A stretch of 28,898 nt of DNA, taken from assembly GCA_024278215.1 (NCBI GenBank), contig JAJRTR010000024.1, positions 1-28,898 on the forward strand. Reading direction: 5' to 3'. The stretch comes from a bacterium (lineage in GTDB: Bacteria > UBP15 > UBA6099 > JAJRTR01). Shown here in pieces: positions 5,081 through 27,179 of this stretch. Position 1 is the first letter of the stretch, and each line of letters begins with the position of its first letter. The position numbers and the translations under genes are program-made. The notes under the pieces are model-generated. The model was not told where the DNA came from. It did not search any database and saw only the letters and a program-made list of their open reading frames with translations.

Positions 5081-5370
5081 TGTCACGTCAGGCTTGTAAT
5101 ATCGCAAGCAGGTGTACGGTGACCCCGCCCTACACTTTTATCGTTATTACGCAAACCCATCTTACGAGCCAATTGCAAAATTCTGATTCGGCTGCGGTCG
5201 GCTGCAATTGTCCATAGCTGCGTTGTCGGCACAAAATCGTCCTCGACGTACTCTACAAGTACGCCTGCGAGGATTTTACACCTCCGCCTTGCTCTGAACA
5301 ATTTCGCTCGACCTCGCTACGAACACAATTTTGCAATTGGCTCTTACGTCTTTTCTTTGTTGACACGACA
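5081..5370. mobile_element. Miniature inverted-repeat element, family 2, copy A (interrupted)
   Basis: Ends are TGTCACGTCA and, inverted, TGTCGTGTCA (8 of 10 match). The element is bracketed by a perfect 4-base duplication, ctac (5077-5080 and 5371-5374). It is the reverse-oriented relative of 15735-15912. Shared stretches include acggtgacccc, cctacacttttatcgtt and gtcttttctttgttgaca. Copy A lacks about 70 internal bases present in copy B and is split by a family-1 element at 5166-5343. It encodes no protein and looks non-autonomous. Confidence 0.72.
5166..5343. mobile_element. Miniature inverted-repeat element, family 1, copy 1 (178 bp)
   Basis: Terminal inverted repeats gagccaattgcaaaatt / aattttgcaattggctc are perfect in this copy, with a 4-base target duplication ttac at 5162-5165 and 5344-5347. 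The interior is a long imperfect palindrome whose centre pairs tcctcg-cgtact with agtacg-cgagga. Compared with copy 2 (27002-27179, opposite orientation) it has the same length and I count six mismatches in 178. It sits inside a family-2 element; the uninterrupted site is preserved at 15735-15912 (acgtaagaaagg). Confidence 0.85.
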
Positions 5371-5443
5371 CTACGTTCTGTAGGTAAATGTACCGACTGT
5401 GACGAACATCATAGTTTAATTTTGCGGATATTGGGAATAATAC

Positions 5444-5556
5444 AGTTAAGCCGAAAAAGGCAAACCCGCTGAAAAGCGGGGACGCAAAGTTACGGGGCTA
5501 AGGCGAATGCCGGAAAGAAAGGTAACCGCTAAGCCGGCCGGGCTGCCGAAGTTACA
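5444..5556 (+). ncRNA. GEMM-I / cyclic-di-GMP-I riboswitch 1
   Basis: Matches the class-I motif in order. GGCAAACC is followed by stem CCGCT/AGCGG capped by a GAAA tetraloop, the hallmark GGACGCAAAG, and a second stem closed by GTTAC/GTAAC carrying GGGGCTAA. It ends with the conserved GCCGGGCTGCCGAAG. It lies 140 bases before flp1, with an intrinsic terminator in between, so ligand binding probably controls transcription into the pilin operon. Related GEMM-Ib RNAs sense cyclic AMP-GMP. The base before CAAA, which I take to be the discriminating position, is G here, favouring cyclic di-GMP, but my placement of that position is not certain. Aptamer ends are approximate. Confidence 0.93.
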
Positions 5557-5594
5557 AGAGGCGAAACGCTTGAAGCGGCTTCGCCACAGACCCC

Positions 5595-5640
5595 CCCACT
5601 TGTCGGCGGCAGCATTGCAGCGGAAGACAGGTGGGTTTTT
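5595..5640 (+). terminator. Intrinsic terminator, expression platform of riboswitch 1
   Basis: CCCACTTGTC (5595-5604) pairs with GACAGGTGGG (5626-5635), nine Watson-Crick pairs and one G-T, around a 21-base loop, followed by TTTTT (5636-5640). It lies between the riboswitch aptamer and the flp1 ribosome-binding site, as expected for transcriptional on/off control. The alternative antiterminator pairing was not worked out. Confidence 0.8.
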
Positions 5641-5697
5641 GTGTAAGAGCACCGGGGCAGAAAAAACTTCGGCCCAAAGAGAAAGGAGGTAAACGAC

Positions 5698-5871
5698 ATG
5701 ACTGCCTTACTGCACAGCCTTTTAAAAGACGAGCGCGGACAGGGTCTCACGGAGTATGCGCTCATAATCGCGTTCGTCGCAGTGGTGATCATTGCGGTGC
5801 TCATTGCATTCCGCGGCCAGATCGAAGCCGTATTCACATCCGCAGGCACAGAACTTGCGAATCCGCATTGA
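5698..5871 (+). CDS. flp1: Flp-type class III/IVb prepilin 1
   Basis: A 57-residue pilin, the structural subunit of the Tad (tight adherence) pilus. The N-terminal leader MTALLHSLLKDERG is followed by QGLTEYALI, giving cleavage after Gly14, the required Glu at mature position +5 and the Flp-typical EYALI. A 20-residue hydrophobic helix (IIAFVAVVIIAVLIAF) follows, then a short tail. A strong ribosome-binding site, GAAAGGAGG, lies a few bases before the ATG. The mature protein is almost identical to that of flp2: from GQGLTEYALI onward the two differ at only two residues (A/G after IE, A/S before NPH). The leaders differ, which suggests duplication followed by leader divergence. Expression should depend on riboswitch 1 and its terminator. 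Confidence 0.95.
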   Translation: MTALLHSLLKDERGQGLTEYALIIAFVAVVIIAVLIAFRGQIEAVFTSAGTELANPH

Positions 5872-5963
5872 TCCCGACCGGGCGCATGTCTCAGGGGAGC
5901 GTGCAGCCCGGACAACTATCGCACCAAAAACACCAACCGCCGCAAAACCAAAAAGTGGCGGGG

Positions 5964-6079
5964 CTTGTTAACAGGGCAAACTCCTCGAAAGGGGAGGACG
6001 CAAAGCCACGGGGCTAAAGCGGTGGCCGCATTGAAAAAGGCCGACCGCCAGGCTCGCCGGGCCGCCGAAGTCTCGGCCA
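5964..6079 (+). ncRNA. GEMM-I / cyclic-di-GMP-I riboswitch 2
   Basis: A second complete class-I aptamer between flp1 and flp2. It has AGGGCAAAC, stem CTCCTC/GGGGAG with GAAA tetraloop, GGACGCAAAG, a stem opening GCCAC with GGGGCTAAAG, and the closing CGCCGGGCCGCCGAAG. Unlike riboswitch 1, it is not followed by a T-tract terminator. A weak stem (GCCAACCCG with CGGG...TTGGC, about 6076-6114) follows without a U-run, so translational, processing or readthrough control is more likely. The G before CAAA again favours cyclic di-GMP. Ends are approximate. Confidence 0.93.
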
Positions 6080-6177
6080 ACCCGTTCGCCCGTCGCACCG
6101 GGCTCTGGATTGGCGTACTCGAAAACAGGCATATCCACGACCTGAACGACTTCGGGAGCAATGAAAGGAGAACAGCT

Positions 6178-6351
6178 ATGTACGACTTGATGAAAAGACT
6201 TTTTGCTGACGAAGAGGGTCAGGGCCTCACGGAGTATGCGCTCATTATTGCATTCGTGGCGGTTGTGATAATCGCTGTGCTGATAGCGTTCCGCGGACAG
6301 ATAGAAGGTGTATTCACATCCGCGGGCACAGAGCTTTCGAATCCGCATTGA
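6178..6351 (+). CDS. flp2: Flp-type class III/IVb prepilin 2
   Basis: A 57-residue paralogue of flp1. Leader MYDLMKRLFADEEG, cleavage after Gly14 before QGLTEYALI, the same hydrophobic helix and a tail ending ELSNPH. GAAAGGAG lies 8 bases before the ATG at 6178. An in-frame open stretch continues upstream through the riboswitch, but the ribosome-binding site and leader match fix this start. Its own riboswitch precedes it, so the two near-identical pilins can be tuned separately. tadV follows 70 bases later. One copy may be the major and the other a minor subunit; the sequence does not say which. Confidence 0.95.
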   Translation: MYDLMKRLFADEEGQGLTEYALIIAFVAVVIIAVLIAFRGQIEGVFTSAGTELSNPH

Positions 6352-6421
6352 CCTGAGAGGGGAAACGGGGGCCCGTCCCGGGGGGGCGCGGGCCTCCCGT
6401 CCTTCCCTTACTGGAGGAATC

Positions 6422-6940
6422 ATGATCTGGACAATAGAAAACATAATTCTGCTTGTTTTTCTTGCGGCGGCGGTCGGGATAGATATGCGCCTGCGTATTG
6501 TTCCGAACGCACTGACTTTTCCGATTATCGCGGTGGCGATAGCGCTGAACATATACAGCGGCGGTGTGCAGGGGTTCTGGTTTTCCGTCGCGGGTTCAGG
6601 GGCGGGCGTCGCGCTGATGCTGCTGCCGTTCGCGGCAGGCGGGCTGGGCGGCGGCGATGTGAAGATGCTGGCGGCGATTGGTGCGCTCAAAGGTGCCGAG
6701 TTCGCTTTCTATACATTTTTATTCTCTGCCGTCGCGGGCGGACTGATAGCGCTGGTGAGGGTGCTGGCAGCCGGGCGCGGCAGGGAAACGCTAACAAATA
6801 TGAAGAATATAACGCTGCTGTGCATCGGCGGTATTAAACCGGACGCGGAAGAGAATGCGGGGAGCATGTTCCCGTATTCGGGCGCGATTGCGGCAGGTTG
6901 CATAATAGCGAATATTGTACTACCGGCCATTGTGAAATGA
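6422..6940 (+). CDS. tadV: Flp prepilin peptidase TadV/CpaA (A24 family)
   Basis: A 172-residue integral-membrane aspartyl protease that removes the Flp leader after glycine. The two catalytic Asp motifs of A24 peptidases are present: GIDMRLRIVPN (Asp21) and GLGGGDVKM (Asp79). Several hydrophobic helices are visible. The short length is typical of CpaA/TadV, which lack the N-methylation domain of PilD. The ATG at 6422 is preceded by GGAGG with good spacing; the open frame further upstream overlaps flp2 and is not used. The stop overlaps a possible ATGA start for the next gene. Confidence 0.92.
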   Translation: MIWTIENIILLVFLAAAVGIDMRLRIVPNALTFPIIAVAIALNIYSGGVQGFWFSVAGSGAGVALMLLPFAAGGLGGGDVKMLAAIGALKGAEFAFYTFLFSAVAGGLIALVRVLAAGRGRETLTNMKNITLLCIGGIKPDAEENAGSMFPYSGAIAAGCIIANIVLPAIVK

Positions 6941-6960
6941 CGTGGGGCGGGGTGACGAAA

Positions 6961-7410
6961 ATGTTGAAAATATGCTTACAAAAAATACTGAAAAGTCAGC
7001 GTGGACAGGCGATTGTCGAGTTCGCTGTCATTATCCCGATATTCCTTGTGATGCTGCTGGGACTGCTCGAGTGGGGTTTTGTGCTGTGGACTCAGACGAC
7101 TTTCAACAATGCTGTCAGGGACGGGGCGCGCGAGGCGGTCGTGCTCCAGGACTGGGACGTCAACTACTCGCAGGATGCGTCGAAGATAATCGCTACAGTG
7201 TCGGGCAGGCTCACGGGGCTGCCGTCGGCGCAGACTCAGAATATTGCAGACAATATAACAATAGAACTTCTGCCGAACTCGACGAATATTGAATCGATAC
7301 GGATCAGCATCGCGGCGCAGCCTTATGTGCCTTTGATCGGAATTACGGGTGTAGCTGTGCCCGGCACGCTCAGCGCGACATCGGAATTCAGATATGAGGG
7401 GAATCTTTGA
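6961..7410 (+). CDS. tadE: TadE-like pseudopilin
   Basis: About 149 residues. The N-terminus carries RGQAIVEFAVIIPIFLVMLLGLLEWG, the TadE-domain signature with pseudopilin-like Gly-Gln and Glu before a membrane helix. It continues with TTFNNAVRDGAREAV, then a short extracytoplasmic domain. TadE proteins are minor pilins processed by TadV and needed for Tad pilus assembly. Alternative starts are GTG 6952 or ATG 6937, which would overlap the tadV stop as ATGA; 6961 gives the most typical N-terminus. tadG starts 11 bases after the stop, suggesting co-translation. Confidence 0.88.
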   Translation: MLKICLQKILKSQRGQAIVEFAVIIPIFLVMLLGLLEWGFVLWTQTTFNNAVRDGAREAVVLQDWDVNYSQDASKIIATVSGRLTGLPSAQTQNIADNITIELLPNSTNIESIRISIAAQPYVPLIGITGVAVPGTLSATSEFRYEGNL

Positions 7411-7421
7411 GGTGAGCGAAA

Positions 7422-8780
7422 GTGTTGAAACACGCGAATAACAACAGGGGGCAGAGCCTTGTGTTATATGTCATATCGTTGACGGTGATACTGGGCACGA
7501 TGGCGCTGGCGTTCGATCTCGGACGTGGGTTCCTCCTGCGGGCGCGGATGCAGCACGCCGCGGATTCCGCCGCGCTGGCCGGTGTTCGCGAGCTTCCCTA
7601 CTACAGCCTGGCCGCGTCGGCAGCTCTGGACTACGCCGCCCGCAACGGTTTCACCGACGGCGACGGATCAATCGTTGTAACGGCATATCCACACCCGACT
7701 ATCAGCAATAGATACGTTGTCGATGTAACCGCCTCCTCCGCGAATTTCCTCGCCCCGGTTATAGGCAGTAATTTCCTTAGCGTGTCGGTTTCGGCGGTCG
7801 CCGAGTTCAACGCGTATCTTCCTATCGACATTACAGGCGGCGGCGAATACGGCGCGAACGGCGTCATGACGCTTTCGATGTTCGGCCCTTACGGCTACTA
7901 CTCGTATGGCGACGCGCTGTCGACGCGCTGGCTCAATGACGGCACGCCCAACCCCGACCACAAACCCGGCGGCTACGACTTCATGATCGAGATACCGGAC
8001 AACTACTATTCGATAAACGGCACGACGATCGCGAAGGTCGAGATATTCGATCCCGACACGTGGAACAACGGCGGCGACAACGCCGCTCCGGGCCTGCGGA
8101 TCGACGAGATAAGAAACGCGCCAGGCGGCTCGCACCCGCAGCCCATCAACAGGCGCAACACTACTATCTACTCGCTCTACGCGCCGGACGACACTCCGAA
8201 CGACTATACAGATGATGTGCTTATTGCGGAAGCAACTTATGGACCTGATGTGTCGTGGACCGACATGAAATGGGTATCGCCCGACGGTTTCGAGATAAAC
8301 ATAAACGACTACGGCACGGGCAAGTACAGGCTGAACATAAGGGCGACGGACGGCGCGAGTGAAAATGGATTCAACCTGCGCGCCGGGCCGCCTGATGCCG
8401 CGTTCGACCCCGACAATGGAACGAAGATTACCGCAGTCGGCGCGATCCCGATGAACTTCAATGACAGCGGAGTTGTGACTATAAACCTCGGCCATGTCGC
8501 GCCCGAGGCGGCCGGCCTGGTGATGCACATAAACAAATTCGATACGGACGTGGGCGCGAAAACGATCGATTACCATTGCGACACTCTTTCGCAGAGCTGG
8601 CCCGGTGTCCTTTCCGGCAACGGGACGTGGAAGGAAGACCTGATAGAGATACCGGCGGATTACGCGGGCGGCAACTGGACGGCGACATACGAGGCGGGTC
8701 TCCAGGATACGTCAGTCTGGACAATGTGGCTCGAAGGCGCAATCGAGGGGCAGCCGGGGTTCGTCAGACTGGTCGAATGA
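7422..8780 (+). CDS. tadG: TadG-like pilus assembly protein with long beta-rich C-terminal region
   Basis: A 452-residue protein with a GTG start behind GGTGAG. Residues 9-55 (RGQSLVLYVISLTVILGTMALAFDLG and the following RARMQHAADSAALAGV) form the TadE/TadG-type N-terminal membrane segment. The remaining ~390 residues are predicted outside the cytoplasm: acidic, rich in G, N, D and Y, with DPDTWNNGGD, DYTDDVLIAEATYGPD and DYGTGKYRLNIRATDG, suggesting beta-sandwich domains. I see no obvious von Willebrand A MIDAS motif, unlike some TadG proteins. It is presumably an envelope-anchored minor pilin or adhesin component of the Tad machine. It sits between tadE and cpaB in the operon. Confidence 0.82.
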   Translation: MLKHANNNRGQSLVLYVISLTVILGTMALAFDLGRGFLLRARMQHAADSAALAGVRELPYYSLAASAALDYAARNGFTDGDGSIVVTAYPHPTISNRYVVDVTASSANFLAPVIGSNFLSVSVSAVAEFNAYLPIDITGGGEYGANGVMTLSMFGPYGYYSYGDALSTRWLNDGTPNPDHKPGGYDFMIEIPDNYYSINGTTIAKVEIFDPDTWNNGGDNAAPGLRIDEIRNAPGGSHPQPINRRNTTIYSLYAPDDTPNDYTDDVLIAEATYGPDVSWTDMKWVSPDGFEININDYGTGKYRLNIRATDGASENGFNLRAGPPDAAFDPDNGTKITAVGAIPMNFNDSGVVTINLGHVAPEAAGLVMHINKFDTDVGAKTIDYHCDTLSQSWPGVLSGNGTWKEDLIEIPADYAGGNWTATYEAGLQDTSVWTMWLEGAIEGQPGFVRLVE

Positions 8781-8855
8781 GCCGATTGCGGACTATCGCA
8801 GCAGGACGGAATGTTGCAATCGTCTCGAATAACAAACGAAAGAAGGCGAACGAAA

Positions 8856-9836
8856 ATGAGAGATAAAATGCTGATCATAATATCGCTGGTCGTCGGACTG
8901 GTCGCCGCGGGCGGGTTCTACCTGTTCTCGGGGAGCAGCCTGTTTTCAGGGAAGACGGATACGCGGGACATGAAACCGGCCCCGGTGGACACTGTGAAAT
9001 GTATAGTGCTGAAACAGGACGTGCCGAAGAGGACACAACTTACAAAGGAGATGCTCGGCGAGATGGAAGTCCCACTGACTGTCGCGCATCCGCAAGCTGT
9101 CACAGAGTATGAGGACGCGGTGGGACGTGTCACGAGGCGCGCGCTGGTGAAGGGTGAAATGTTGCTGGAGCCGCATCTGCGCGACGGCAAAGCGCCGTCC
9201 AATCTCAGCTTTGTGATACCGGTCGGCAAACGCGCGATTACTATCGGCGCGTCGGTCACCAGCGCGCTGAGCAACATGCTCAAGCCGGGCGACAAAGTCG
9301 ATGTCATCGTGTATCTCGACAAAAAAGTGGCGGGCAAAGAAATGTCTGTGACGCTGCTGCAAGACATGATGGTGCTGGCGACAGACGCGATGATCGAAGA
9401 GGAAAACGACTCCGACGGCATCCTGAAAAAGGCTGGCGGCAGTGCGCGCAACGCCAAAGGCTATCAGTCTGTCACGCTCGCTGCAACGCCTGAAGATTGT
9501 GTGCGGCTGAATCTCGCGGAATCCGTCGGCAGGCTCAAGCTGACGCTGGACACGCCCCGTAACGATCGGCCCGGCGCTCATGAATTCGAGGTGGCCGTGG
9601 TGGATGATCTTTTCCGTGTGAATCCTGTCGCCGTTGCCGAAGTGAAACCCGTCAAGCATAAAACATGGAGAAAAGCGAAACCGAAAGTGAAAACAAAGAA
9701 CACGAATATCGAGATAAAACGCGTCGATACGCCTCGATTCACCGAAGAAGAAAAACTCGTGTACATCATGAGGGGCACCGAACTTGAAGAACTCACCGTC
9801 ACTGAAATAGTGCCTGTGAAATACTCCGCGAAGTGA
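8856..9836 (+). CDS. cpaB: Flp pilus assembly protein CpaB/RcpC (SAF domain)
   Basis: About 326 residues. One N-terminal membrane helix (MLIIISLVVGLVAAGGFYLF), then a SAF domain (VLKQDVPKRTQLTKEMLGEMEVP ... VTRRALVKGEMLLEPHL) and the RcpC region (VGKRAITIGASVTSALSNMLKPGDKVDVIVYLD), typical of periplasmic CpaB proteins that support secretin assembly. The C-terminal tail contains a Lys-rich stretch (residues about 270-300) and ends EEKLVYIMRGTELEELTV. The ATG at 8856 gives the canonical N-terminus; the upstream in-frame ATG at 8811 lacks support. The stop overlaps a GTG of the next frame. Confidence 0.9.
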   Translation: MRDKMLIIISLVVGLVAAGGFYLFSGSSLFSGKTDTRDMKPAPVDTVKCIVLKQDVPKRTQLTKEMLGEMEVPLTVAHPQAVTEYEDAVGRVTRRALVKGEMLLEPHLRDGKAPSNLSFVIPVGKRAITIGASVTSALSNMLKPGDKVDVIVYLDKKVAGKEMSVTLLQDMMVLATDAMIEEENDSDGILKKAGGSARNAKGYQSVTLAATPEDCVRLNLAESVGRLKLTLDTPRNDRPGAHEFEVAVVDDLFRVNPVAVAEVKPVKHKTWRKAKPKVKTKNTNIEIKRVDTPRFTEEEKLVYIMRGTELEELTVTEIVPVKYSAK

Positions 9837-9847
9837 GGGAATGGAAC

Positions 9848-11173
9848 ATGAAAACTATGAGACTTACCGCACTGATAACTTTTTATATACTTGCGGCGGC
9901 TGCCACGGCGATTGCCGGCGGCTACTCCGCAACATCAGCGATAGACATGTTCGTCGGGGAGACCAGAGTCCTGCGATACGAGGCGGTCGACCAACTCGCG
10001 ATCGGAGACCCGACCGTGGCAGATGTTCAGATGTTCGCCGAGAAAGCGGGTGAAGTCATCCTGAACGCGAAAGCGCCCGGCGTGACGACACTCTTTGTCT
10101 GGGACGGTGCGAGCATATTCCCACACAGACGCGATGTCGTTGTTTCAAACAAAACGGTGGTCCTCGACAAGCGCATTTTCAACTTCAAACACTACACACT
10201 TACACGTACTGAGTACGACAACCGGCTGAGCAGGATCACCGTCAGCCCCGACGAATCGAACGTGACGAACCTCAAGTCTGTACTGACACCGCTGATCGGA
10301 GAGAACAGCTACTCTATCGACATCAACCGCAACCGTGTGATCATGCGCGGCACGAAGCAGGACCTCGATTCGGCGACGGCGATACTTGGCGAGATCGACC
10401 AGCCGCTGCGCCAGATACTAATCGAGGCGAAAGTCATCGAGATAACGAAAGACGACCTGAACCGGCTCGGCACTATGCTCGCGGGAAGCGACGGCGACAT
10501 GTCTCTGAAGGGCGACCTGAGCGGCGACACGCCCCTGTTCAACCTGGCGTTCGACACATTCACGGACCTCGCCCGCCGGTTCAGCATTACCATTGATACA
10601 CTGCGCACAGCGGGTGTGGGCCGCACGCTGGTCAACCCGAAAATTGCGACGCTCGACGGAAAGACCGCATGGATTCTCGCCGGTGAAAAGTACCCGGTCG
10701 CCACGAGAGACAACGACAAAGGGCTCGTGTCTTTCGACTATGTGCACACAGGCATCAGCCTCGCCGTCACGCCCCGCGTCGGTCGCGACGATACTATAAC
10801 ACTGTGGCTCAAGCCCGAAGTAAGCAACATCTCCGGCTGGGTCGGCGATCCGAGTTCATCCAGCGATAACGCCGCGCCGATTATCGATACCCGCGAAGTA
10901 TTGTCCGAAGTCAGGCTCAAGGATGGCGAGAGCATAATCATCGGCGGCCTGCAGAAGGAAGAAAGTATCATGACAAAAAGCAAAGTCCCGATACTCGGCG
11001 ATATTCCGCTTATCGGGAAAGCGTTCAGGAAGAAACGAACTTCGGAAGAAACGAGCGAACTCGTGATCGTTATTACTCCGCATATTATGGATGAAAACGA
11101 AAAGCCCGATCTCGGCAGATTCGGTTTGCTCGACATGTCAAAACCAAACGAAGCCGCCAGCGAGGCGGACTGA
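9848..11173 (+). CDS. cpaC: Tad pilus secretin CpaC/RcpA
   Basis: A 441-residue outer-membrane secretin, the pore through which the Flp pilus leaves the cell. It has a signal peptide (TALITFYILAAAATAIAGG), an N-terminal pilus-secretin domain (VGETRVLRYEAVDQLAIGDPTVADVQ), a BON/N1-like middle and the secretin core. The core shows VNPKIATLDGKTAWILAGEKYPV, EVRLKDGESIIIGGLQKEE, SKVPILGDIPLIGKAFRKKR and SELVIVITPHI. GAGGGA lies 7 bases before the ATG at 9848, which decides the start over an upstream GTG that overlaps the cpaB stop. Confidence 0.93.
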   Translation: MKTMRLTALITFYILAAAATAIAGGYSATSAIDMFVGETRVLRYEAVDQLAIGDPTVADVQMFAEKAGEVILNAKAPGVTTLFVWDGASIFPHRRDVVVSNKTVVLDKRIFNFKHYTLTRTEYDNRLSRITVSPDESNVTNLKSVLTPLIGENSYSIDINRNRVIMRGTKQDLDSATAILGEIDQPLRQILIEAKVIEITKDDLNRLGTMLAGSDGDMSLKGDLSGDTPLFNLAFDTFTDLARRFSITIDTLRTAGVGRTLVNPKIATLDGKTAWILAGEKYPVATRDNDKGLVSFDYVHTGISLAVTPRVGRDDTITLWLKPEVSNISGWVGDPSSSSDNAAPIIDTREVLSEVRLKDGESIIIGGLQKEESIMTKSKVPILGDIPLIGKAFRKKRTSEETSELVIVITPHIMDENEKPDLGRFGLLDMSKPNEAASEAD

Positions 11174-11190
11174 CCACAGGAGGCGGCGTC

Positions 11191-12390
11191 ATGGACAATA
11201 AACAGCTTGCGGCAATTGTCAGCACAAAAGAATGGGCCGGTCTCAACCAGGCGCTCGCGCGGCTCGATACCATCGAATTGCTGTCTCCGCTTATGAATGT
11301 CGAGGAACTGAAGCGTGAGACTTCGCGCGAACTGCTCGACATTGTTTTCGTCGATGCAGACGAGTACATTCCCAGCGATGGAGACGCGAAAGTGCTTGCA
11401 AACGGAAGTGGACTCTATGTTGTTTTCATTTCCGCAAACGAAAACCCGCCACTCATGAAAAAAGCGATGCGTGCCGGCGCGAAAGACTTTATCGTCGAGC
11501 CGTTTATGAAAGAAGACCTCGAAGACATAGTCGAAAGCGCGGCAAAGCAACGCACTGCGCCGCACGCCGAAGGCATCGTCACGGATGCCGATGCGAACGC
11601 GGGCGGTCCCTCGAAAACCATCGCTTTCTTTTCGACAAAAGGTGGTGCGGGCAAAAGTATTCTCGCTGCAAACTTCGCTGTCGCACTCTCTCGCGTCGAG
11701 AGCTGTAAAGTATGCCTGCTGGACCTCGACCTCCAGTTCGGCGACCTCGCGCTGATTTTGAATGTAAAGCCGCACGCCACCATCACCGATCTCGTCACGG
11801 GCGGCGGCGACATCGCCGAAGAACTGCCCGCATACCTCACAAGATTTGACGATAACCTTTCCATACTGCCATCGCCTGTAAAACCCGAGGAGGCCGAGCT
11901 TATCACACCAGCCCACATCGAGCAGATAACACAGGCGCTGAGCGCGCGCTTCAAATATGTGATCATCGACACTACGACTACGTTCCACGATGTCTCCATC
12001 ATGGCGCTGGACAAAAGCGACGAGGTTTTTCTCGTGGCGACTCCGATAATCCTTTCAGTAAAAAATCTCAAGGGGATGCTCAAGGTGATGAAAGAGTCGC
12101 TGGAGTACCCCGACGAAAAGATAAAGATTGTGCTGAACAGGTGCGACAGCCGGTTCGGCATCAGCAGGCCGGACATAGAAAAACTCAGCAACAGGAAGAT
12201 CGACTACATGACGCCGAGCGATGGGAATATCGTCGTGCAATCGCTCAACAGGGGCGTACCGACGGTCGTCGGCTACAAAAACAGCAAGTTCTCGAAAGCG
12301 ATTGTGAAAATGGCGCGGTCTGTTGCAGACGTGTCCGCCGCGTGCTCCGCGAAAACTCCGTTCTGGAAAAAGTGGTTCGCAATAAGGTGA
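11191..12390 (+). CDS. cpaE: TadZ/CpaE-like ParA-family ATPase with receiver-like N-terminus
   Basis: A 399-residue cytoplasmic protein that localises the Tad machine at the pole in studied systems. Residues about 1-118 resemble an atypical response-regulator fold (IVFVDADEYI; GLYVVFISANENP; KDFIVEPF). The ATPase part begins with the deviant Walker A STKGGAGKS (K150, residues 148-156), followed by LLDLDLQFGD and VIIDTTTTFHD (Walker B-like). A clear AGGAGG precedes the ATG. cpaF follows 36 bases after the stop. Confidence 0.9.
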   Translation: MDNKQLAAIVSTKEWAGLNQALARLDTIELLSPLMNVEELKRETSRELLDIVFVDADEYIPSDGDAKVLANGSGLYVVFISANENPPLMKKAMRAGAKDFIVEPFMKEDLEDIVESAAKQRTAPHAEGIVTDADANAGGPSKTIAFFSTKGGAGKSILAANFAVALSRVESCKVCLLDLDLQFGDLALILNVKPHATITDLVTGGGDIAEELPAYLTRFDDNLSILPSPVKPEEAELITPAHIEQITQALSARFKYVIIDTTTTFHDVSIMALDKSDEVFLVATPIILSVKNLKGMLKVMKESLEYPDEKIKIVLNRCDSRFGISRPDIEKLSNRKIDYMTPSDGNIVVQSLNRGVPTVVGYKNSKFSKAIVKMARSVADVSAACSAKTPFWKKWFAIR

Positions 12391-12426
12391 CAGGAATAAT
12401 CAGTAAAAAGGGCAGGGGGAACAACA

Positions 12427-13794
12427 ATGGGACTTCTGGACAGAACAAAAAAAACCGCCGCTAAAAACTGCGCCGACGAAGCCGCAAACGGCAGGCAGCA
12501 GACGTCGCACGACGATAAGTCCGCCAGGCTCGACGACCTGCGCCTGCGTGTACACGAGAGGCTCATCGAGGAGATCGGTCAGGATATTCTCTATGGCGAT
12601 GTACCCGAGGAAAAAACAAAACGGGCCATAGCCGCTACGCTCGACAGCCTGATGGAAGAAAACAACGTGGTCATCCTAAAGGCCGAGAAAGACAGGTTGA
12701 TCGAAGAATTATGCAACGAAGTGCTCGGTCTCGGCCCCATCGAGCCGCTCGTTCGCGATGATGAGATAACTGAAATAATGGTAAACGGCCCCGACCGTGT
12801 CTACGTCGAGAGAAACGGGAAGATCGAACTAACAGACCGGAAATTCCGGGATGACGAACATGTGCATCGAATAATAGAAAAGATTGTGTCGCCGCTCGGC
12901 AGGCGGATCGACGAATCGTCTCCGATGGTAGACGCCAGGCTTGGCGACGGCTCGCGCGTCAACGCTATCATTCCGCCGCTTTCGCTCAACGGCCCGACTA
13001 TTACTATCAGGAAGTTCTCGAAAGACCCGCTCCAGGTGGACGACCTGATCAGCTTCGGCACATTCACCAGGGATATCGCCGCTTTTATCGAAGCATGTGT
13101 CAGGGCGCGGCTGAACTGCATTGTATCCGGTGGCACAGGCTCGGGAAAAACGACAACACTTAATGTGCTTTCCTCCTTCATTCAGGATACAGACCGTATC
13201 GTTACTATCGAAGACGCCGCCGAACTGCAATTGCGGCAGGAGCATGTCGTCACGCTCGAAAGTCGCCCGCCGAATATGGAGGGCAAAGGAGAGGTGACAA
13301 TCAGGGACCTTGTCCGCAACTGTCTCAGGATGCGGCCCGACCGTATTATCGTCGGCGAAGTGCGCGGCGGCGAGGCGCTCGATATGCTCCAGGCAATGAA
13401 CACCGGCCACGACGGTTCTCTCACCACCGGGCACGCCAATTCGCCCAGGGACATACTTTCACGTCTCGAAACGATGGTCCTCATGGCGGGTATGAACCTG
13501 CCGCTGAGGGCCATACGCGAGCAGATTTCATCCGCTATCGACCTGATAGTGCATCAGGAGCGGATGCGCGACGGCAAAAGACGCCTCACTTATGTTACCG
13601 AGGTCGTCGGCATGGAAAACGACATCATTACTCTACAGGATATTTTCATTTTTAAAAAAACAGGCGTGGACGACAACGGCAACATACTCGGCGAATTCAA
13701 GTCAACCGGCATCGTTCCGAAATTCGTGGAACGCTTTAAAACCGCCGGCATCAAGCTGCCACTCAGCATGTTCCACACCTTCGGGGAGATGTAA
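12427..13794 (+). CDS. cpaF: Tad secretion ATPase TadA/CpaF
   Basis: A 455-residue hexameric VirB11/GspE-type ATPase that powers Flp pilus assembly. An N-terminal charged linker is followed by the all-alpha and N-terminal domains ([41 protein letters not shown]). The ATPase core has Walker [10 protein letters not shown] (235-243), the Asp/Glu box [28 protein letters not shown] (Walker B region) and the His box [15 protein letters not shown]. Length and motifs are normal for the family. The ATG at 12427 follows AGGGGG. It ends 3 bases before tadB. Confidence 0.96.
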
Positions 13795-13797
13795 TCT

Positions 13798-14739
13798 ATG
13801 GCTCCATACATCGTCATATTCCTGCTGGGCACACTGGCCGCCTACGCCTTGTCGTCGCTGGCTGCCGGGAAAAAACGCGCGGCGCTCGAAGGCCGCCTCT
13901 CGGGACTCGAACACACCGCGGACACCGGCCGACGTGAAGCCCGCCACGCACGCAGCGTCTTCGCCGCCGTCGACACTTCGATACGTGGTTTCAGCATATC
14001 CGCGAAAATCAAACGCGAACTCGCGAGGGCCAACTGGTCGCTGAAAGTATCCGAGTTCATGATCATCGTTATCCTTTCGGCAACACTCGCGCCGCTTATC
14101 GTGTTGTTGCTGACCGACAATAAAATGCTGACTCTTTATCTCGTCGGCGGTGGCGCGGTGATCCCGATCATTCTCCTGAAACGCAAGCAGGCGGCACGCA
14201 GAAAAATGTTTTCAAGCCAACTGCCGGACGCCATCACGCTGATCTCGAACTCGCTCAAGACCGGCTACAGTTTCCTCCAGTCTATCGACATGGTGGCGCG
14301 CGAGCTGTCGCCGCCGATATCCGAGGAGTTCCGGAAAGTGCTCCAGGAGATCAAGCTGGGCATACCGTTCGAGACAGCTGTCGAGCGGCTCGTCGAGAAA
14401 GCCGGCAACGAAGACCTCGATCTCGTGATGACGAGTGTCAACATACAAAGAGAGGTGGGCGGCAACCTTTCGGAAATACTCGATAAAATATCGCACACGA
14501 TCCGCGAGCGGATACGAATCCGCGGCCAGCTTCAGACACTCACCGCGCAGGGACGTCTCTCCGGCATGATCCTATGCCTGCTGCCGCCCGCGCTCGGCCT
14601 CTTCCTCTTCCTTGTGAACCAGGACTACATCATGCTCCTGTTCCGCCATCCCACAGGCCGCGTCCTGACTGCATTCGCCGTTGTCACACAACTCACCGGC
14701 ATGATGCTCATCAGGAAAATCATCGACATCAGGATATAG
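13798..14739 (+). CDS. tadB: Tad pilus inner-membrane platform protein TadB
   Basis: A 313-residue type II secretion F-type membrane protein. It has an N-terminal helix (IVIFLLGTLAAYAL), two central helices (FMIIVILSATLAPLIVLLL; LTLYLVGGGAVIPIILL), a cytoplasmic T2SSF domain (PDAITLISNSLKTGYSFLQSI; EVGGNLSEILDKISHTIRER) and two C-terminal helices. It partners TadC and the CpaF ATPase. It is tightly packed: 3 bases after cpaF and 2 bases before tadC. Confidence 0.93.
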   Translation: MAPYIVIFLLGTLAAYALSSLAAGKKRAALEGRLSGLEHTADTGRREARHARSVFAAVDTSIRGFSISAKIKRELARANWSLKVSEFMIIVILSATLAPLIVLLLTDNKMLTLYLVGGGAVIPIILLKRKQAARRKMFSSQLPDAITLISNSLKTGYSFLQSIDMVARELSPPISEEFRKVLQEIKLGIPFETAVERLVEKAGNEDLDLVMTSVNIQREVGGNLSEILDKISHTIRERIRIRGQLQTLTAQGRLSGMILCLLPPALGLFLFLVNQDYIMLLFRHPTGRVLTAFAVVTQLTGMMLIRKIIDIRI

Positions 14740-14741
14740 CC

Positions 14742-15665
14742 ATGATCAAACTGATACTGACAATACTTGTTTTCTCATCATTCGCCTGTCTCGCAGCCGG
14801 CATACTGCTTTCGTCCGGCCGGAAGCGGGCGCTTGCGGCGCGCCTCGATCAGCTCGACATCACCCAGCGCGGCATCTCTCTCGAAGAAATGGAAATGTCA
14901 CGTTCGTTTGTCGAACGAGCCCTTCTGCCTGCGTTCGCTATGATCGGGCACATCGTCGCGCGGTACTCGCCCGCCGGTTTTCTCGAACGCACACAAAACA
15001 AACTGAATGTCGCCGGCTACCGCAGGGCGGATCCGCTCGCATACATCGGCATCAAGGGCATCGCAGCATTGTCACTATTCGGGCTGGCCGCGCTCGTATG
15101 TTCGTTTTCCGGCATGGATGTAAGCGCGATCCTTGTTTACCTGATCATCTTTCCCGCCGCCGGGATCATACTGCCCGATCTCATTCTTTTGCATACAGGC
15201 AACAAGCGTAAATATGAAATAAACGCCGGACTTCCCGACCTGCTTGATATTTTAACCGTCAGCGTGGAGGCCGGGCTGGGTTTCGAGCAGGCGCTCCTAC
15301 AGGCCGCGAACAAATTAAAAGGCAGTGTATCGAAGGAAATCCGGCGGCTGCTGCAGGACATGCGCCTCGGCAAAAACCGCAGCGAAGCGCTCCGCGCTAT
15401 GTCCGACCGGCTCATGATACCCGATCTGACTACATTCTGCGCCGCCATGATTCAGGCCGATCAGCTCGGCGTCGGCATAGCGGACGTGTTGCGCGTGCAG
15501 TCCGACAGCATGAGGCAGAAAAGACGACAGCGTGCCGAAGAAACAGCCATGAAAGCGCCGCTCAAGATGCTTTTCCCGCTCATTTTCTTCATCTTCCCGT
15601 CACTATTCGTCGTCCTTCTCGGGCCTGCGTTCATCAGCATTATGGAAAATCTTAAAACGCCATGA
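14742..15665 (+). CDS. tadC: Tad pilus inner-membrane platform protein TadC
   Basis: A 307-residue paralogue of TadB with the same plan: an N-terminal helix (LILTILVFSSFACLAAGILL), paired central helices and a T2SSF domain (GLPDLLDILTVSVEAGLGFEQAL; ADQLGVGIADVLRVQSDSMRQKRRQ), closing with the helix LKMLFPLIFFIFPSLFVVLLG. The ATG at 14742 lies 2 bases after the tadB stop; the longer open frame upstream overlaps tadB. It is the last gene of the Tad operon; no TadD-type TPR gene follows in this window and no clear terminator is visible after it. Confidence 0.93.
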   Translation: MIKLILTILVFSSFACLAAGILLSSGRKRALAARLDQLDITQRGISLEEMEMSRSFVERALLPAFAMIGHIVARYSPAGFLERTQNKLNVAGYRRADPLAYIGIKGIAALSLFGLAALVCSFSGMDVSAILVYLIIFPAAGIILPDLILLHTGNKRKYEINAGLPDLLDILTVSVEAGLGFEQALLQAANKLKGSVSKEIRRLLQDMRLGKNRSEALRAMSDRLMIPDLTTFCAAMIQADQLGVGIADVLRVQSDSMRQKRRQRAEETAMKAPLKMLFPLIFFIFPSLFVVLLGPAFISIMENLKTP

Positions 15666-27001: not shown

Positions 27002-27179
27002 GAGCCAATTGCAAAATTATGTTCGTAGCGAGGTCGAGCGAAATTATTCAGAGCAAGGCGGAGGTGTAAAATCCCCGCAGGCGTACTTGTAGAGTACGTC
27101 GAGGACGATTTTGTGCCGACAACGCAGCTATGGACAATAGCAGCCGACCGCAGCAGAATCAGAATTTTGCAATTGACTC
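27002..27179. mobile_element. Miniature inverted-repeat element, family 1, copy 2 (178 bp)
   Basis: Same length as copy 1 and in inverted orientation to it, with six mismatches. Terminal repeats are gagccaattgcaaaatt and, inverted, gagtcaattgcaaaatt. A perfect 4-base target duplication, tcta, flanks it (26998-27001 and 27180-27183). It lies in the divergent promoter region between the thiolase operon and the acyl-CoA dehydrogenase genes, and as a long imperfect palindrome could form a large hairpin if transcribed. Confidence 0.87.

Follow-up and report, generated by a model that had tools for sequence, protein, structure and literature searches.

At the head of a Tad pilus operon in an uncultured bacterium of the GTDB lineage UBP15, we found two Flp pilin genes, each preceded by its own GEMM-I aptamer, in the order aptamer 1, flp1, aptamer 2, flp2. 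The DNA analyzed, here called the window, is a stretch of 28,898 nucleotides (nt) of contig JAJRTR010000024.1 (assembly GCA_024278215.1, forward strand). We read this region as two cyclic di-GMP (c-di-GMP) class I riboswitch-pilin units in series on one Tad transcript, and we think it probable that unit 1 is an OFF-switch of the kind described for Cd1 of Clostridioides difficile and that unit 2 acts posttranscriptionally. The arrangement is a real and unusual assembly of known parts; its function is predicted. The elements of the two units are as follows.

5449 to 5550, forward strand: c-di-GMP-I aptamer 1 (RF01051, 76.7 bits; RF03167, 67.4 bits).
5542 to 5553, forward strand: switching strand X, GCTGCCGAAGTT, the 3' strand of aptamer 1 with the ligand-contacting C (alignment A3).
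5595 to 5640, forward strand: intrinsic terminator with a 10-bp stem (5595-5604/5626-5635) and TTTTT at 5636-5640 (-23.7 kcal/mol, z -2.28).
5607 to 5613, forward strand: X1, CGGCAGC, the complement of X within the terminator loop and the predicted antiterminator partner of X (from complementarity and folding).
5665 to 5673, forward strand: X2, AACTTCGGC, 8 nt 5' of the flp1 Shine-Dalgarno sequence, complementary to X (5545-5553) over 9 bp (shuffle P 0.0004).
5698 to 5871, forward strand: flp1, a Flp/Fap pilin of 57 amino acids (PF04964, 34.5 bits, E 1.8e-8).
5937 to 5961, forward strand: hairpin that separates flp1 from aptamer 2 and lacks a T-tract (-12.8 kcal/mol, z -2.25).
5965 to 6069, forward strand: c-di-GMP-I aptamer 2 (RF01051, 73.6 bits).
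6065 to 6072, forward strand: switching strand X of aptamer 2, CCGAAGTC (from complementarity).
6076 to 6114, forward strand: hairpin after aptamer 2 that excludes local pairing of the aptamer 3' strand, no T-tract (-19.5 kcal/mol).
6148 to 6155, forward strand: X2 of unit 2, GACTTCGG, 8 nt 5' of the flp2 Shine-Dalgarno sequence (8 bp, shuffle P 0.0024).
6178 to 6351, forward strand: flp2, a Flp/Fap pilin of 57 amino acids (PF04964, 30.5 bits, E 3.2e-7, which is 1.7 bits short of the cut-off of 32.2 bits).

A complete GEMM-I aptamer before each pilin gene had been proposed in an initial annotation made from the sequence alone, and the covariance search bore this out, with both RNAs well past the RF01051 gathering score of 35 bits. 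No other GEMM-I match was found when the 4.55-Mb genome was scanned with RF01051. The two aptamers are 68% identical. For comparison we used a phylum sample of seven genomes, all from one order, of which five carry Flp and two do not. One of them, G002 (locus L059), belongs to another family of this small phylum and has the same aptamer-flp-aptamer-flp layout; being independent, it rules out an assembly accident as the source of the arrangement. The open frame at 5965-6351, which covers aptamer 2 and continues into flp2, appears to be a chance product of GC-rich sequence.

The bases that distinguish ligands are of the c-di-GMP type in both aptamers: a G before the GC pair, an A after GACGC, and a C in the 3' strand (in alignment A3, G at column 11, A at column 38, and CC at columns 130-131). 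The A that replaces the G at the specificity position in GEMM-I RNAs of the cyclic AMP-GMP (cGAMP) type was found in neither. The Rfam scan assigned aptamer 1 to the GGC variant, RF03167, whose gathering score is 59. We rejected a GGC-variant ligand because the defining base after GACGC is A, not G (GACGCAAAG in aptamer 1 versus GACGCGAAG in the RF03167 consensus), and despite passing that model, aptamer 1 reads as an ordinary c-di-GMP-I aptamer. The genome contains 10 GGDEF domains. We infer that c-di-GMP is the ligand of both aptamers and that, as the initial annotation had it, a cyclic dinucleotide would be directly in charge of pilin supply.

That annotation also placed a terminator after the first aptamer and none after the second. 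Folding agrees on both counts: the hairpin at 5595-5640 ends in five T residues, and no intrinsic terminator was found in unit 2, where the hairpin at 6076-6114 lacks a T-tract. The direction in which unit 1 would switch can be read from two characterized riboswitches (PMC9262584). In Cd1, an OFF-switch, aptamer and terminator coexist and the antiterminator takes the 3' strand of the aptamer; in the Geobacter metallireducens pilM riboswitch, an ON-switch, the aptamer strand forms part of the terminator. In unit 1, the terminator coexists with the folded aptamer in a constrained fold, its stem lies entirely downstream of the aptamer, and an antiterminator formed from the aptamer 3' strand is predicted, with an X:X1 pairing probability, before the 3' arm of the terminator is made, of 0.7 in the window and 1.0 in the relative G005. 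Because unit 1 shares the Cd1 layout and not that of pilM, we predict by analogy that less polymerase reads through into the Tad operon when c-di-GMP is present. On/off control of the whole operon, as first suggested, is retained in that unit 1 has a terminator, and it now has a predicted direction. Without c-di-GMP, X would pair with X1 in the terminator loop and polymerase would go on to transcribe flp1 and the rest of the operon; once c-di-GMP is bound, the aptamer would hold X, the terminator would form, and the whole operon would be turned down.

Other bacteria, most of them Bacillota, show similar X:X1 arrangements in the GEMM-I leaders of their Flp genes. The complementarity within the terminator loop covers 7 bp in the window, 8 bp in G005, 7 to 8 bp in locus L064, and 6 bp in locus L105, and in Aquibacillus-type loci it covers 8 to 10 bp and spans the loop and a terminator stem arm. 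X1 has the same position in G005 and L064 as in the window. The sequences vary, as in L105 and the Aquibacillus-type loci, while the pairing is kept (GCTGCC/GGCAGC, GTTGCC/GGCAAC, and TTACCGAA/TTCGGTAA).

The opposite direction, in which c-di-GMP promotes read-through, would be expected if high c-di-GMP promotes pilus attachment. Like the window, pilM is a GEMM-I family RNA before pilus genes, it is an ON-switch, and the window loop is long enough for an X:X1 pseudoknot with the terminator. However, aptamer and terminator are mutually exclusive in pilM, whereas those of the window coexist, with the stem wholly downstream as in Cd1, and in Aquibacillus-type loci there is overlap between X1 and the arm of the terminator stem. 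Unlike the window, pilM also senses cGAMP and serves a type IV pilus (PMC9262584). We consider an ON-switch somewhat unlikely. The likeness of the preferred OFF-switch to Cd1 lies in the aptamer class, the coexisting downstream terminator, and the antiterminator; Cd1 stands alone and acts on other genes (PMC9262584); the window differs in its Tad operon, in having another aptamer behind the first gene, and in an extra complementary element near the Shine-Dalgarno sequence.

This extra element, X2, lies downstream of the terminator and therefore must act on the read-through transcript. In the predicted fold of the unliganded full-length leader of unit 1, X:X2 has a pairing probability of about 0.85. 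In unit 2, X has C in place of T, and X2 has the matching G in place of A. Complementarity between X and X2 over 8 to 9 bp was found in five leaders, namely both window units, G001, G006, and G005 (shuffle P 0.0004-0.004 each, with the leaders related and the P values not independent), and the distance from X2 to the Shine-Dalgarno sequence is 7 to 8 nt in all five although the spacers vary strongly. G001 and G006 have no T-tract terminator at all, and X2 is still present. We also considered pairing of X2 with the 5' flank of the aptamer. Unit 1 and G001 would permit it, but the flank in unit 2 does not contain the required sequence. Most of the other GEMM-I loci scanned showed no further partner for the aptamer strand after the first, and we rejected this as a general GEMM-I trait. 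In L105, an Flp leader from an uncultured member of the Clostridia, an 11-bp complement of the aptamer 3' strand directly follows the terminator, about 65 nt past the aptamer, and may be a second example from outside the phylum. Bc1, which combines transcriptional and translational regulation (PMC11218506), resembles the window in its long platform and in that effects on both a terminator and the ribosome site are possible; its sequence and gene are different.

Unit 2 lacks the compatible downstream terminator of a Cd1-type OFF-switch, and no promoter of its own was found for aptamer 2. The hairpins at 5937-5961 and 6076-6114, recovered by folding, lie at the sites near 5964 and 6114 where the initial annotation placed possible RNA ends. 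Aptamer 2 would be reached solely by transcripts that have passed the first gate, and it would act on flp2, and perhaps on later genes, without an intrinsic terminator and probably after transcription, with X pairing with X2 just 5' of the Shine-Dalgarno sequence unless c-di-GMP holds X. Posttranscriptional tuning of flp2 is the most likely role of unit 2, the other possibility being a mechanism such as Rho-dependent termination. For the proposal made at the outset that flp2 is fine-tuned or its RNA processed we found no direct evidence; what we found instead is the X2 element conserved in both units.

Several observations weigh against our reading of the two units. The X:X1 complementarity of the window alone is just 7 bp (shuffle P 0.017), and the 21-nt loop that holds X1 leaves room for this pairing to coexist with the terminator as a pseudoknot. 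X2 was looked for in the G002 leaders and not found, and X of unit 2 also pairs with nearer sequence (P about 0.57). Predicted accessibility of the Shine-Dalgarno sequence is nearly equal between the two states (0.82/0.77 in unit 1 and 0.81/0.89 in unit 2), so that simple masking of this site by X:X2 is unsupported. Further, the phylum sample is seven genomes only, and the two that lack Flp are 92% and 67% complete.

We also considered the possibility that aptamer 2 adds nothing specific and is a by-product of cassette duplication, either inert or repeating the first decision. The absence of a promoter and an intrinsic terminator in unit 2 speaks for this. However, aptamer 2 still scores far above threshold despite drift, its X2 pairing is kept by a matched change, and the layout recurs, through a separate event, in a second family. 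The drift is considerable. The initial annotation called the two pilin genes nearly identical, which is true of the protein core (82% amino acid identity) but not of the nucleotide sequence (77%) or the third codon positions (52%). Based on these values and the divergence of the aptamers, flp1 and flp2 are old paralogues, both units having been kept since an old duplication; a recent duplication of the units was rejected on the third codon positions. We regard a by-product as unlikely.

Alternatively, two identical sensors in series could sharpen the response of the whole operon in a pseudocooperative manner, with the two pilins treated alike. Tandem c-di-GMP-I riboswitches, which like the window place several aptamers of one class on one transcript, are common and thought to act in this way (PMC9481103; PMC12452182; see also Bc3-5 in PMC4759541). 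The known tandems, however, occupy one intergenic region before one gene, while each window aptamer has its own gene; by the definition of contiguous riboswitches as sharing a common intergenic region and the same gene (PMC12452182), the window pair falls outside, as flp1 separates its members. The second unit has no terminator, and the pilins differ in their N-terminal parts. This explanation, too, seems improbable to us. The reading of two riboswitch-pilin units can be extended, tentatively, to two checkpoints: the terminator loop would offer the aptamer strand its initial partner and the region upstream of the Shine-Dalgarno sequence a later one, so that one ligand could gate transcription and then translation or RNA fate. 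Such a cassette may have been duplicated at least twice, setting two pilin levels separately under a partner-switching sigma factor.

The history of the paired layout was examined with approximately unbiased tests, which rejected all four orthologous pairings of the window and G002 pilins (p 0.0001-0.0006). One ancestral duplication shared with G002 is thereby rejected, unless gene conversion erased it. Because the trees reject every such pairing, the sequences indicate that the paired layout arose twice or was homogenized later. For flp1 as closer to flp2 or to the G001 pilin, the tree test gave a p value of 0.10.

To place the arrangement more broadly, we examined 80 Flp loci from genome contigs. 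GEMM-I lies upstream in 19 of them, 15 of which are outside this phylum; because the loci were picked for likeness to the pilins of this phylum, the proportion should not be taken as global. Loci in Bacillota and other groups with a single GEMM-I aptamer before Flp (L062, L064, L099, and L105, among others) share the aptamer class and pilin family with the window, and several share its terminator logic, but they have one aptamer followed by one or several pilins, with a DUF192 gene between in L099 and L119. Two directly adjacent GEMM-I aptamers precede one Flp gene in L070 (2633-2849; Syntrophomonadaceae). Besides the window, an aptamer for each pilin was seen in none of the 80 loci but G002. 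Aptamer-gene-aptamer-gene series with other genes do exist; for instance, in L038 (G041), from another lineage, two paralogous genes are each preceded by a GEMM-I aptamer, as in the window, although the genes are lipoprotein-like and not pilins. The initial annotation had considered a separate aptamer for each paralogous Flp gene to be new. We found no paper on GEMM-I before Flp pilins in the open-access literature (most subscription papers being outside this search), which is in keeping with that view; the wide occurrence of GEMM-I before Flp and the series of the L038 type narrow it.

Upstream of unit 1 lies a candidate promoter.

5414 to 5440, forward strand: SigB/SigF-like promoter, GTTTAA-N13-GGGAATAA, with the start expected at or just before aptamer 1.

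This promoter resembles the SigB consensus GTTTAA-N15(+/-2)-GGGTAT (PMC9847131). The exact pattern, composed after inspection of the leaders, occurs once in this genome, and four relatives also have it once each ahead of their first Flp aptamer. Written as GTTTNA-N13-GGGAATAA for the relatives, it gives one hit per genome in four of the five Flp-bearing genomes and two in G005; it is absent from the two Flp-less relatives, and the reversed pattern gave no matches. A SigBFG sigma factor is likewise encoded in the five Flp-bearing genomes (245 to 256 bits, cut-off 234), with none above the cut-off in the two without Flp, from which TadE is also absent. Flp, GEMM-I, the promoter pattern, and the SigBFG sigma factor thus co-occur in five genomes, and none of them is found in the other two. 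In the present genome, the sigma factor gene (G000:C123, L156:2565-4127) adjoins STAS and HATPase_c_2 genes; the order is STAS, HATPase_c_2, and the sigma factor in a row before an alaS-like gene, with a PAS/GAF histidine kinase upstream, and from its gene content this is a partner-switching locus. We infer that this sigma factor reads the Tad promoter, in which case it would begin transcription at aptamer 1.

Elsewhere in the sample, a GEMM-I aptamer at L032 (G002:C324, 4388-4487) precedes a short open reading frame and has GTTTGG-N13-GGGAATAA upstream, and one at L034 (G005:C352, 361-444) precedes a lipoprotein-like gene of 379 amino acids. The window also contains two copies of a 178-bp imperfect inverted repeat resembling a miniature inverted-repeat transposable element (5166-5343, forward strand, and 27002-27179, reverse strand). 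About 40 copies or more, 96 to 98% identical, occur genome-wide, and the first window copy stops 70 bp upstream of the Tad promoter.

Downstream of flp2, the genes run on as a full Tad operon.

6422 to 15665, forward strand: prepilin peptidase, TadE, TadG-like, RcpC/CpaB, secretin, TadZ/CpaE-like, CpaF ATPase, TadB, and TadC (Pfam), which with Flp form one run.

Directly after flp2, a hairpin at 6357-6410 (-39.6 kcal/mol) lacks a T-tract, and a strong terminator-like hairpin lies downstream of flp in G005; the window hairpin possibly sets the ratio of pilin to machinery. A DUF192 gene (PF02643; 15927-16289) follows tadC. Together with the DUF192 genes between the GEMM-I aptamer and flp in the Bacillota loci (L099:2588-2965 and L119:2437-2778), its position suggests a link between DUF192 and Tad pili.

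If our reading is correct, this Tad operon would have one riboswitch for each pilin paralogue, and the supply of Tad pili would be under c-di-GMP control at the level of RNA in phyla that are only distantly related. Of most interest are the predicted OFF direction and the presence of two partners, one after the other, for a single aptamer strand. Two questions become testable: does c-di-GMP in these bacteria switch transcription of the Tad pilus genes off instead of on, and can two pilin paralogues be dosed separately when a riboswitch cassette is duplicated together with its gene?
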